Shown here piece by piece: positions 1 to 64,000 of a DNA stretch of 64,000 nucleotides. This stretch comes from Phycisphaerales bacterium (GTDB lineage: Bacteria > Planctomycetota > Phycisphaerae > Phycisphaerales > UBA1924), in NCBI GenBank assembly GCA_020831775.1, contig JAFIFZ010000036.1, forward strand, positions 62,001 to 126,000, given 5' to 3'. A program made the position numbers and the translations under genes. Under the pieces are notes generated by a model. That model had not been told where the DNA came from, searched no databases, and saw only the letters and a list, made by a program, of their open reading frames with translations. How positions within the stretch are numbered: position 1 is the stretch's first letter; each line of letters starts with the position of its first letter.

Positions 1-51
1 AAGCCTCGGAAGATCGCCGAGCATCTTGGGGCGCTGTACCGGACGATGTAG
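1..51 (+). CDS. C-terminal tail of an unidentified protein (cut by the window edge)
   Basis: The first frame is open from base 1 and ends at TAG 49-51, giving a 16-residue tail that ends LGALYRTM. It is followed by the structured intergenic element at 141-275 and then the convergent accC gene, so this is a plausible gene end. Nothing in 16 residues identifies the product, and chance openness cannot be excluded. Confidence 0.4.
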   Translation, partial: KPRKIAEHLGALYRTM

Positions 52-140
52 AGAGAGTGTTTGGGGGCGCTCCGGTGTGCCGGAACACGCTTCGGAGGAG
101 CGGAGGAATCGTTCGATATGTGTTCCGCATTGCGGATCAA

Positions 141-275
141 AGTCTTCCTTCGCCCCTTCAGGGCGAAACTATGATTTGTGCCGCTTTCCACGGGTTGCGC
201 TTGTCCGACGCTTTGCGTCGGCCTGCGCTCCACCCGTGGCTACAACCCATCGTCCCTTCGGGACGACGATTTCTA
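141..275. repeat. Multi-hairpin intergenic element between convergent genes
   Basis: Three inverted repeats lie in a row. Hairpin 1 pairs 149-155 (TTCGCCC) with 161-167. Hairpin 2 is compound: CCACGGGT 188-195 pairs with ACCCGTGG 232-239, GCGC 197-200 with GCGC 225-228, and an inner CCGACGC 205-211 with GCGTCGG 215-221 around TTT. Hairpin 3 pairs CGTCCC 251-256 with GGGACG 260-265 around TTC. The inner hairpin resembles the one at 41930-41946. It is probably a REP/BIME-like repeat that also terminates transcription from both sides. No other copy of the full element was seen in this window. Confidence 0.6.
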
Positions 276-317
276 GAGCGAGCCAAACGGACTGAAATGG
301 ACCGAAGCCGCTCTCGT

Positions 318-1661
318 TCAGCCCTTGAGCAGCCGTTCCAGATAGTGGATGTCGATCCCGCCCTTGCGGAAGCCTTCGTCCTGCATAAGTCGCAGGTGGA
401 GGGGGATCGTTGTTTTGATGGGCTCGACGGTGAACTCGCCGAGTGCGCGGGCCATGCGGTCGAGGGCTTTGTCGCGGGTGTCGGCGTGGACGATCAGCTT
501 GCCGACCATTGAGTCGTAGTTGGGCGGGACGGTGTAGCCGCTGCAGGCGTGTGAATCGACGCGGACGCCCGGGCCCCCGGGGGGGATCCATGTGTTGATC
601 CTGCCGGCGCAGGGCATGAAGTTCTTGTCGGGGTCTTCGGCGTTGATGCGGCACTCGATCGCGTGCCCCCGCACCTTCACATCCTCCTGCTTGAAGGGGA
701 TGGGTTCGCCTGCGGCGACGAGGATCGAGAGCTGGACGATGTCCAGGCCGGTGATCATCTCCGTGACCGGGTGCTCGACCTGGACGCGGGTGTTGACCTC
801 CAGCATGTAGAAATTCTGGTCCTTGTCCATCAGGAACTCGACCGTCGCGGCGCCGGAATACTCGGCGGAGCGGACGAGCCTGGCGGCGGCCTCGCAGACT
901 TCCTGGACTCGCTTGCGGTCGATGCCCGGGCCGGGGGCTTCCTCGATGATCTTCTGGTGGCGGCGCTGCATGGAGCAGTCGCGTTCCCAGAGGTGGATCG
1001 AGTTGCCGTGCTTGTCGCCGATGACCTGCACCTCGACATGTCGTGCGTTTTCGAGGAACTTCTCGATGAAGACCGAGCCGTTGCCGAAGGCTGCGAGGGC
1101 CTCGTTCTGGGCCTGCTTGATGTTGGAGCGGAGCTCTTTTTCGTTTCGGCAGACGCGCATGCCGCGTCCGCCCCCGCCGGCCGCGGCCTTGAGGATGACG
1201 GGGTAGCCGGTCTCTTCGGCGATCTTTGCGGCTTCGTCCTCGTCGTCGATGGCGCCCTCGGAGCCGGGGAAGATCGGGACGCCGGCCTTCTTGGCGAAGC
1301 GTTTGGCCTCGACCTTGTCGCCCAGGGCGCCCATCGCCTCGGGGCTGGGGCCGATGAACTCGATGGAGTGCTCGCGGCAGATCTCGACGAAGTCGGACCG
1401 CTCGGCGAGGAAGCCGTAGCCGGGGTGGATGGCCTCGACCTCGGCGATCTCCGCGGCGGCGATGAGCCTTGCGATGTTGAGGTAGCTCTCGCGCGCGGGG
1501 CCGGGGCCGATGCAGATGGCGCGATCGGCCAGGCGGAGGTAGGGGGCCTCTCTGTCGGCCTCGGAGTAGACGCAGACGGCCTCGACGCCGAGCTCTTTGC
1601 AGGCCCGGATGATGCGGAGGGCGATCTCGCCTCGGTTGGCGATCAGGATTCTTTTGAACAT
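318..1661 (-). CDS. accC: Acetyl-CoA carboxylase, biotin carboxylase subunit
   Basis: This subunit carboxylates the biotin on AccB using ATP and bicarbonate, the first half of malonyl-CoA synthesis. The 447-residue length matches the family (about 449 in E. coli). It opens with the N-terminal FKRILIANRGEIALRI motif. The ATP-grasp glycine loop GGGGRGM is near residue 165, and the catalytic-face motifs EVNTRVQVEHPVTE and ECRINAED are present. It lies 16 bases downstream of accB on the same strand, so the two are surely co-transcribed. No clear Shine-Dalgarno sequence precedes the ATG, which may be reached by re-initiation from accB. Confidence 0.97.
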   Translation of the reverse strand: MFKRILIANRGEIALRIIRACKELGVEAVCVYSEADREAPYLRLADRAICIGPGPARESYLNIARLIAAAEIAEVEAIHPGYGFLAERSDFVEICREHSIEFIGPSPEAMGALGDKVEAKRFAKKAGVPIFPGSEGAIDDEDEAAKIAEETGYPVILKAAAGGGGRGMRVCRNEKELRSNIKQAQNEALAAFGNGSVFIEKFLENARHVEVQVIGDKHGNSIHLWERDCSMQRRHQKIIEEAPGPGIDRKRVQEVCEAAARLVRSAEYSGAATVEFLMDKDQNFYMLEVNTRVQVEHPVTEMITGLDIVQLSILVAAGEPIPFKQEDVKVRGHAIECRINAEDPDKNFMPCAGRINTWIPPGGPGVRVDSHACSGYTVPPNYDSMVGKLIVHADTRDKALDRMARALGEFTVEPIKTTIPLHLRLMQDEGFRKGGIDIHYLERLLKG

Positions 1662-1677
1662 CGCGTGCGTGCCCGGG

Positions 1678-2136
1678 TCAGGAGGGGCGGACGAGCATGA
1701 GCTTCTGCCCGAACTCGACGGCTTCGCCGTTCTTGACGAGGATTCGTTCGACGGTGCCGGAGACCTCGGCCTTGATCTCGTTGAAGACCTTCATGGCTTC
1801 GATGAGGCAGACGGTGGTGTTTGGGCTGACGTTGCCGCCCTCGGTGATGAAGGGCTCTGCGTCGGGGTTGGGCGTGGCGTAGTAGGTGCCGACCATGGGC
1901 GACTCGATGGCGACGAGTCCGGCGTCGGATGCGGGCGGGGCGGCGGGTGCGTCGGCCTGCGCGGGCTGCTGCTGGGCGGCGGGGGCGCCGTTGAGGACGA
2001 CGGGCGCCTGGCCGGGCAGGGCCTCGTGGCCTCGCTTGATCAGGACCTTTTCTTCCTTGTCCTGCAGGTCGAGCTCGGTGAGCTCGTTCTCGACCATGAG
2101 GCGGACCAGTTCCTTGAGCTTTCGGATATCGATCAT
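1678..2136 (-). CDS. accB: Acetyl-CoA carboxylase, biotin carboxyl carrier protein
   Basis: The 152-residue carrier protein has the family layout. An N-terminal helix (about 1-30) is followed by an Ala/Pro/Gln-rich flexible linker (about 40-72) and a C-terminal biotinyl domain starting near VAIESPMVGTYY. The biotin attachment motif EAMKV places the modified lysine at residue 116. The biotinyl domain swings between AccC and the carboxyltransferase. It sits between the M24 peptidase gene and accC in one minus-strand group, an order seen in many bacteria where pepQ-efp-accB-accC cluster; efp is missing here. Confidence 0.96.
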   Translation of the reverse strand: MIDIRKLKELVRLMVENELTELDLQDKEEKVLIKRGHEALPGQAPVVLNGAPAAQQQPAQADAPAAPPASDAGLVAIESPMVGTYYATPNPDAEPFITEGGNVSPNTTVCLIEAMKVFNEIKAEVSGTVERILVKNGEAVEFGQKLMLVRPS

Positions 2137-63203: not shown

Positions 63204-63231
63204 GCGATCCAGCACAAACGCAGACCTGTGG

Positions 63232-63258
63232 CACTGGCGGCTCGCCCGCCAGTGTTTT
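63232..63258 (+). terminator. Intrinsic terminator of the nuoJKLMN block
   Basis: CACTGGCGG (63232-63240) pairs perfectly with CCGCCAGTG (63246-63254) around a CTCGC loop and is followed by TTTT. It lies 28 bases after the nuoN stop. The GGCTCGCC core resembles the palindromes at 29674 and 59040, so it may be a repeat recruited as terminator. Confidence 0.85.
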
Positions 63259-63308
63259 CATGTCGTTGCCCCGCGATATCTGCTGAGCCACACCCCACTC
63301 CCCTCTAT

Positions 63309-63314
63309 TACACT
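63309..63314 (+). promoter_or_regulatory. Putative -10 box (TACACT) of the transglutaminase-like gene
   Basis: TACACT ends six bases before ATG 63321 with only CCCCCC between, so the mRNA is probably leaderless. Confidence 0.45.
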
Positions 63315-63320
63315 CCCCCC

Positions 63321-64000
63321 ATGACCATCGCGAGAACCATCGCCCTCGTCCTGCTCACGCTCGCTCCCGCGGCCTGGGCCGGCGGCACATGGGACCAGAT
63401 CCGCCAGCAGGCCTCAGAACGCTTCGGCGAGGCGGGCGCAGAAGCCGCGGCGTTTCTCGCCGAGCACCGGCCCGAGCGCGACGCACAGATCGACCCCGAG
63501 ATCGTGCTCGTCGCCATCGAGCTTTCGCTCCGCGCGCGGGAGACCTATCCGTGGGCGAAAGAACTGGACGACGAGCTCTTCTTCAACGATGTGCTGCCGT
63601 ACGCCGTGCTCGATGAGGAGCGGGCGAGGTCGCGTCGGCGTGTGCACGAGCTCGCGGCGCCGATCGTCGAGGGTTCGGCGACGGCCGCGGAGGCCGTGCA
63701 GGCGCTCAACCGCGAGCTGTTCCGCTCGACCGGCGTCCGCTACAGCACCGAGCGGAGGCGGGCGAACCAGAACTCGAACGAGACGCTCGACCTCGCCCTC
63801 GCCTCGTGCACGGGGCTTTCGATCCTGCTCATCGAGGCGTGCAGAAGCGTCGGCGTCCCGGCCCGGATCGCGGGCGTCGCGAGCTGGCCGGGCTCGGGCG
63901 GCAACCACGCGTGGATCGAGATCCACGACGGCGAGCGCTGGCGGTTCACCGGCGCTGCCGAGTACAACGCCGGCGGGCTCGACCGGGCCTGGTTCGTCGG
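63321..64000 (+). CDS. Secreted transglutaminase-like protein (3' end beyond window)
   Basis: The frame is open from ATG 63321 to the window edge (226 complete codons). A signal peptide (IARTIALVLLTLAPAAWAGG) is followed by a helical region (about 25-140). A transglutaminase/papain-like core then has the catalytic Cys in ASCTGLSILLIEACRSVGVPARI (near residue 157) and His in GGNHAWIEIHDG (near 194); the Asp partner would follow. Such planctomycete proteins may crosslink or cleave surface proteins. The activity is inferred from two of three residues. Confidence 0.8.
   Translation, partial: MTIARTIALVLLTLAPAAWAGGTWDQIRQQASERFGEAGAEAAAFLAEHRPERDAQIDPEIVLVAIELSLRARETYPWAKELDDELFFNDVLPYAVLDEERARSRRRVHELAAPIVEGSATAAEAVQALNRELFRSTGVRYSTERRRANQNSNETLDLALASCTGLSILLIEACRSVGVPARIAGVASWPGSGGNHAWIEIHDGERWRFTGAAEYNAGGLDRAWFV

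Follow-up and report, generated by a model that had tools for sequence, protein, structure and literature searches.

The 64,000-nucleotide stretch analyzed here, referred to as the window, comes from the genome of an uncultured member of the Phycisphaerales (assembly GCA_020831775.1, contig JAFIFZ010000036.1) and is almost devoid of the tetranucleotide ACGT. The genome, designated G000, comprises 3,553,943 bases in 84 contigs. An earlier prediction from the sequence alone had named six ACGT sites, at 1829, 23845, 30485, 38116, 62491 and 63018, and a machine count recovered all of them and no others. The sites and the open reading frames (ORFs) in which they lie are listed below; none of the listed features has a strand of its own.

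1..64000, no strand: whole window, part of an ACGT-depleted chromosome (6 sites observed, 161.6 expected); a genome-wide and not a local feature
1829..1832, no strand: residual ACGT site 1, in the predicted ORF 1678-2136 on the minus strand
23845..23848, no strand: residual ACGT site 2, in the predicted ORF 23641-24444 on the minus strand
30485..30488, no strand: residual ACGT site 3, in the predicted ORF 29746-31575 on the minus strand
38116..38119, no strand: residual ACGT site 4, within the transposase ORF 37659-38552 (rve, HTH_21) of an insertion sequence
62491..62494, no strand: residual ACGT site 5, in the predicted ORF 61560-63203 on the plus strand
63018..63021, no strand: residual ACGT site 6, in the same predicted ORF, 61560-63203, on the plus strand

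The expected number of sites was calculated with a second-order Markov model, which gives an observed-to-expected ratio of 0.037 and a Poisson probability of 1.7e-60 for the deficit. Base composition, used as an alternative for the window, predicts 193.8 sites, in line with the figure of about 200 put forward originally. ACGT is the lowest-scoring 4-mer of the window, followed by CTAG with a ratio of 0.31. The suggestion that the insertion sequence and the defence cassette in the window share the depletion could be followed only in part: counts are low in both (1 versus 4.1 expected and 0 versus 2.8 expected, respectively), but each element is too short to show depletion on its own, and the site at 38116 is located inside the transposase gene. 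Positions 27507-29290 hold a two-gene cassette with a reduced G+C content of 0.56, encoding an ATPase and a DUF4276 partner, which PADLOC assigns to HEC-01A (E 6.3e-132) and HEC-01B (E 5.9e-39).

The depletion extends to the rest of the genome. In 18 additional stretches of G000 (about 281 kb), which were picked by contig number alone, 26 ACGT sites were found as compared to 689 expected. A sample of 402 kb, which includes the window and excludes the ACGT-bearing part of contig C24, contains 33 sites versus 1,006 expected (ratio 0.033), with CTAG as the next lowest 4-mer at 0.25. In the same sample the hexamer CAGCTG is also low (36 versus 112), as it is in the relatives (90 versus 180). For a screen of whole draft genomes, we counted the pattern SSACGTSS and compared it to the control SSTGCASS, which is its backward reading, in 150 genomes of the order, including G000. 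The own genome has 129 occurrences of SSACGTSS versus 2,798 of the control. The 14 genomes of the order with a ratio below 0.13 are referred to as depleted in the following.

The loss of ACGT is accompanied by a switch in codon choice. Among 94,629 codon pairs in G000, the C-ending codons for Asp, Asn, His and Tyr make up 87-95% before G-starting codons other than GTN (C:T endings of 1742:253, 632:31, 637:49 and 583:34, respectively), but only 2-3% before GTN (9:271, 3:94, 2:100 and 3:83). These 17 C-ending versus 548 T-ending codons bear out the claim that Asp-Val, Tyr-Val, Asn-Val and His-Val are written with T-ending codons. The switch is missing from seven non-depleted relatives, in which the C:T endings before GTN are 139:18 for Asp, 86:4 for Asn, 45:3 for His and 54:12 for Tyr.

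All three reading frames are affected. With a hyphen marking the codon boundary, the observed and expected counts in G000 are 4/184 for ACG-T, 17/418 for NAC-GTN and 5/42 for NNA-CGT, and the corresponding counts in the 13 other depleted genomes are 2/104, 34/332 and 2/63. In 20 other genomes, a set from which the intermediate genomes G090 and G118 and the AGCT-depleted genomes G008, G035, G048 and G058 were excluded, the counts are 153/175, 731/783 and 141/148. We also compared 32 aligned codon-pair columns from rpoB, rpoC and three neighbouring genes, each with ACGT in at least 35% of the non-depleted genomes. ACGT is present in 14 of 383 cells of the depleted genomes, as compared to 344 of 503 cells of the others. 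Non-synonymous cells in the NAC-GTN columns account for 87 of 335 in the depleted genomes and 97 of 440 in the others, and the proteins have thus hardly been touched.

The replacement patterns bear on whether the sites were lost by mutation. Deamination of a methylated A(m5C)GT would convert C to T and yield ATGT or ACAT by mutation rather than selection, as happens with CpG, which becomes depleted by deamination of m5C. The two cases share the loss of a CG-centred word and a gain of TG. In keeping with such a process, ATGT is strongly increased in the NAC-GTN frame of G000 (488 versus 87 expected), although it is the sole synonymous exit there, and C5 methyltransferases (PF00145) occur in five of the 14 depleted genomes, G000 among them, with two of the enzymes near Vsr genes in G081. 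The original proposal that the gap is filled by ATGT and ACAT calls for caution as regards ACAT; its counts in the three frames of G000 (54 versus 37, 646 versus 563 and 10 versus 15) show an excess that is small or absent. Depletion is also found in the frame NNA-CGT, where either product of deamination would alter the encoded amino acids. Nor is there a bias from C to T or from G to A where a choice exists. In four Thr columns, the 48 cells of the depleted genomes consist of 43 ACC, 3 ACA and 2 ACT before T, so that ACG was replaced by ACC and not by ACA. Across G000, Thr before T is encoded by 56 ACA, 363 ACC, 4 ACG and 46 ACT, as compared to 331 ACA, 2036 ACC, 1852 ACG and 99 ACT before other bases, with no excess of ACA before T. 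Finally, PF00145 has no match in nine of the 14 depleted genomes. Deamination as a general cause is thus largely refuted, and we consider it highly improbable as the explanation.

The flanking bases have no strong effect. All ten NACGTN classes are low, with ratios of 0-0.063 in the 402-kb sample and 0-0.022 at 14 loci of seven other depleted genomes (229 kb, with mobile-island loci excluded), the rarest classes having an expectation of only about 7 sites. What is avoided is the exact 4-bp palindrome, in all reading frames. Strict non-coding DNA of G000 contains 1 site versus 5.7 expected in a small sample of 3.4 kb, and the near-zero whole-genome totals of G039 and G060 support the view that the depletion reaches non-coding DNA. 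Selection could in principle act on messages instead, through an endoribonuclease that cuts ACGU, and sequence-specific RNases exist. The non-coding sample of G000, small as it is, argues against this, and the genome-wide SSACGTSS counts of 4 and 2 in G039 and G060 are so low that non-coding DNA can hardly have been spared. Furthermore, both strongly lost words in the order, ACGT and AGCT, are palindromic, which RNA targets need not be. We give such an RNA-level process hardly any credence.

In total, 12 of the 150 genomes fall below 0.1 of the control word, and the ratios of the 14 depleted genomes range from 0.0025 to 0.12. The extremes are G039 (4 versus 1595) and G060 (2 versus 609); G030 has 19 versus 1896. 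In a draw of 392 genomes from the phylum, eight fall below 0.1 in our reading of the table, six of which are from outside the order. A comparison of single loci in 40 genomes, comprising all 14 depleted and 26 others, was based on the rpoC region in 38 genomes and on another stretch in G040 and G058. Here, all 14 depleted genomes have ACGT at 0-0.25 of expectation. Levels are intermediate in G090, G118 and G124, and the remaining 23 genomes are close to expectation. Two loci retrieved with the conserved short methyltransferase of the congener G002 as query, one on the G002 contig and the other with a 96% match, both from metagenome-assembled records, have 1 site each versus 41.7 and 53.7 expected.

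On a tree of 38 genomes inferred from RpoC (38 rows) and RpoB (34 rows), the depleted label requires 11 changes, either gains or losses, of which at least nine are forced by well-supported branches. Shuffled labels require 11.6 changes on average, with 223 of 500 shuffles needing as few as observed, and the label is therefore not clustered on the tree. Sister pairs that differ in depletion are G019/G082, G030/G085, G081/G016, G026/G035 and G148/G090, the last of which, G090, is itself intermediate. ACGT depletion is thus patchy among close relatives, as expected of systems that are gained and lost. A search of the open-access literature, which does not cover most subscription journals, turned up no description of planctomycetes that avoid ACGT.

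A second word is lost in other members of the order. Only ACGT, AGCT and CTAG fall below 0.3 among the 4-base palindromes with more than 8 expected sites at the loci examined, and CTAG is low in many genomes. AGCT was screened as SSAGCTSS versus SSTCGASS. Because TCGA is frequent in these genomes, ratios normally lie far under 1, and the control is less even. Nine of the 150 genomes are below 0.1 of this control, none of which belongs to the 14 ACGT-depleted genomes. G035 and G086, which are members of the same genus, are both in the AGCT-depleted set. At the loci of the 40-genome comparison, G035 has 2 AGCT sites versus 51 expected, while its sister G026 has 1 versus 52 for ACGT and 14 versus 59 for AGCT. 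Genome-wide, G026 shows a partial loss of AGCT (557 versus 2420 for the control) and a near-total loss of ACGT (23 versus 1701).

ACGT has been retained in mobile DNA within the depleted chromosomes. On contig C24 of G000, the first 25,000 bases contain 55 ACGT sites (about 76 expected), positions 25,001-47,500 contain 18 (about 61 expected) and the remainder contains 1 (about 58 expected). The ACGT-bearing feature is as follows.

G000:C24, about 1-43212 (L153, L132, L154): prophage-like region, DUF499/DUF1156/PLD-helicase cassette and serine recombinase; ACGT-bearing

The first part encodes portal, capsid, terminase and single-strand-binding proteins as well as a ParB-like DNA methyltransferase. 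The cassette and the recombinase make up the second part, and the intermediate density of sites continues for about 4 kb beyond the recombinase. On G019:C4, 22 ACGT sites lie within about 7.4 kb. This stretch encodes a phage capsid protein and a SacI-type nuclease with an adjoining methyltransferase, and four of the sites are inside the methyltransferase gene, as compared to 4 sites versus about 155 expected in the rest of the contig (2.8 kb not included). The gene for the major head protein is located just past the last site, in ACGT-free DNA, and phage-like DNA is thus not always ACGT-bearing. A third stretch, of about 15 kb on G060:C35, has 17 sites. Each of the three stretches carries a gene for a DNA methyltransferase. 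DNA that has newly arrived can thus keep the word, and such sites do not kill the chromosome.

Hypermutation at ACGT, affecting any of its bases and caused for instance by a damaging enzyme coupled to error-prone repair, would require no selection. It would likewise hit all frames and contexts and spare recently arrived phage DNA for a while. From the observed ratios, it would need a mutability of about 30 to 300 times normal, and we know of no process that makes ACGT hypermutable to such an extent. The replacement codons follow ordinary codon preference, as would result from selection or from later re-equilibration. We therefore regard hypermutation as unlikely.

The alternative offered in the original prediction is that the word is selected against as a target of restriction or damage. 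This agrees with the depletion in all frames and flanks, the synonymous routes of loss and the patchy spread. The selection has most probably come from a Type II restriction system specific for ACGT, either still active or only recently lost, whose effect was weak and long-lasting; we infer both the restriction enzyme as the agent and its presence, now or in the past, in this genome. MaeII, HpyCH4IV and TaiI are enzymes that cut ACGT; the likeness to these is one of specificity only, and no homologues to them were sought by sequence in this study. The enzyme would occasionally cut sites that escape protection, at a small cost per site, and selection at the DNA level would slowly purge the sites, largely through synonymous codon changes. 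Under a simple balance of mutation, selection and drift, scaled selection need be only about ln(1/0.033) = 3.4 to produce a ratio of 0.033. Since this suffices, the loss could become near total without any single site being lethal, in keeping with the dozens of sites that a prophage retains.

An internal yardstick is provided by an XhoI-family restriction enzyme (PF04555, E 6.5e-67) encoded next to a PF01555 methyltransferase on G000:C82 (L131:6827-8597). Its target is presumably CTCGAG, the XhoI site. The ratio for CTCGAG is 0.37 in the own genome, as compared to 0.52 in congeners (51 kb) and 0.73 in relatives (613 kb). A restriction-modification system that is Type II by family thus coexists with avoidance of its site, and such avoidance occurs in this genome, although here the site has six bases and the avoidance is much weaker.

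Several observations weigh against an ACGT-specific restriction system. The depletion of ACGT is far stronger than that of CTCGAG, and the phage regions with many sites within depleted chromosomes show that there is no strong restriction of unprotected ACGT there today. Also, our searches identified no ACGT-specific nuclease or methyltransferase in these genomes, which are incomplete drafts. Four Pfam classes of methyltransferases were searched in the 14 depleted genomes: PF00145 and D12 are each present in five and without a match in nine, PF02384 is present in nine and absent from five, and PF01555 is present in each depleted genome, as it is in every one of the 40 genomes searched. The PF01555 matches in the depleted genomes G001, G002 and G072 belong to only three recurrent groups, two of which are widespread in non-depleted genomes. 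The comparison of the methyltransferases with each other took in part of the enzymes, with one locus per non-depleted genome. The earlier statement that no matching methyltransferase gene is seen extends from the window to the four classes searched, in that none has been shown to mark the depleted genomes.

Neither the C5 methyltransferases nor the D12 or PF02384 proteins are supported as a common cause, given their presence in only five, five and nine of the 14 genomes, respectively. A short solitary PF01555 methyltransferase (247 amino acids, G000:C18:23475-24215) was rejected because it has matches in 102 of the 150 genomes (E 1e-10), depleted or not. Some of these matches represent weaker paralogues, none is found in G047 and G081, and G148 was not among the matches listed. 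A nuclease partner with the DUF4928 domain, encoded with a C5 methyltransferase in G000, does not track depletion either; it was identified in 13 of the 150 genomes and, among the depleted ones, only in G000 and G047. Vsr was seen only beside the two C5 methyltransferases of G081:C17 (L122:6506-8152 and L123:6015-8487), and no genome-by-genome search for Vsr was made. These two enzymes are encoded about 16 kb apart, each with a Vsr gene that is adjoining or one ORF away.

The third of the recurrent PF01555 groups is represented by a protein of 288 amino acids from G001:C184 (L114:1384-2247), for which split matches occur in 13 of the depleted genomes, with perhaps a fragment in G030 besides. 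PF01555 is its only Pfam match over the cut-off, in addition to a weaker methyltransferase domain, and its motif order is reversed against the PF01555 model. Five copies compared are 60-95% identical to it, and alignment places the protein, with L113 and L115-L117, in at least five depleted genomes. The spread of this type was followed in the depleted genomes, and the scores among the matches listed for the non-depleted ones sat above such weak matches. The unlisted PF01555 matches in those genomes are numerous enough that they would allow the L114 type there, and the protein may be an ordinary conserved gene.

Several restriction-modification loci were identified in G000 and in other depleted genomes, none of them linked to the reading of ACGT. 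The methyltransferases of G019 (L121:5466-7816) and G039 (L120:6085-7903) are 84% identical over 294 residues, with the former adjoining the SacI-type nuclease and the latter adjoining an ORF of 227 amino acids that matches no family. Because the similar G019 enzyme adjoins a SacI-type nuclease, the sequence comparison suggests that the G039 methyltransferase reads a target other than ACGT. In G060, two methyltransferases (L127 and L128) have partner ORFs that PADLOC names Type II restriction enzymes, and in G030 the ORF next to a methyltransferase (L125) matched no family. Neither the L127 nor the L125 ORF had a match among solved structures. The L127 nuclease matched 11 plasmid records, none with a named specificity, and no phages, and the L125 ORF had no plasmid match. 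Separate lineages may use unrelated enzymes with one target, which would defeat a search for one family.

As a special case of selection by a Type II system, the enzyme may have shaped the genome and since been lost, so that the depletion is a fading record. The lack of a methyltransferase shown to mark the depleted genomes would fit such a history, and so would G026, with its partial AGCT and near-total ACGT loss next to a strongly AGCT-depleted sister, as if targets had been swapped. Ratios of 0.0025-0.01, as in G039, G060 and G030, leave almost no room for regain, and the pressure in these three genomes should therefore be current or very recent. A past system is accordingly a possibility that we entertain with some doubt. 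A further reading is that some of these bacteria have a defence that cuts ACGT without a modification partner, the genome protecting itself by the near-absence of targets and resident phages bringing their own DNA methyltransferase. It is prompted by G001, G002 and G072, in which, the L114 type aside, no methyltransferase was shown to be distinctive, and by the methyltransferase genes in the ACGT-bearing stretches. We see only a slim chance of this; if true, target removal would stand in for methylation.

We compared these results to a previous survey of orthodox Type II systems, according to which 850 of 1774 genome-site pairs show avoidance and traces of lost restriction systems are common (Rusinov et al., 2015; PMC4687349). 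Selection by an active or recent Type II system, which we favour, would share with these cases a short palindrome, selection at the DNA level, patchiness between relatives and the possibility of avoidance without a detectable system. The differences are that the loss here is near complete, with ratios of 0.0025-0.12 to the control and 0.033 to expectation in G000, as compared to an avoidance cut-off of 0.78 on another measure in that study, that it comes and goes within one order, that ACGT and AGCT are the strong targets and that no enzyme is identified. Relative to known avoidance, what is added here is that the loss is nearly complete, that it appears and disappears among members of a single order and that no methyltransferase was shown to accompany it.

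This chromosome of 3.5 Mb is without about 96% of the copies of one tetranucleotide, and some relatives lack more than 99% as judged by the control word, which makes for an unusually clean natural experiment on weak synonymous selection. The presence and absence of the depletion in sister species, together with the alternative word AGCT, lets one ask whether restriction drives the loss and how fast it appears and fades. The same contrast lets one ask whether the removal of targets can replace methylation as protection.

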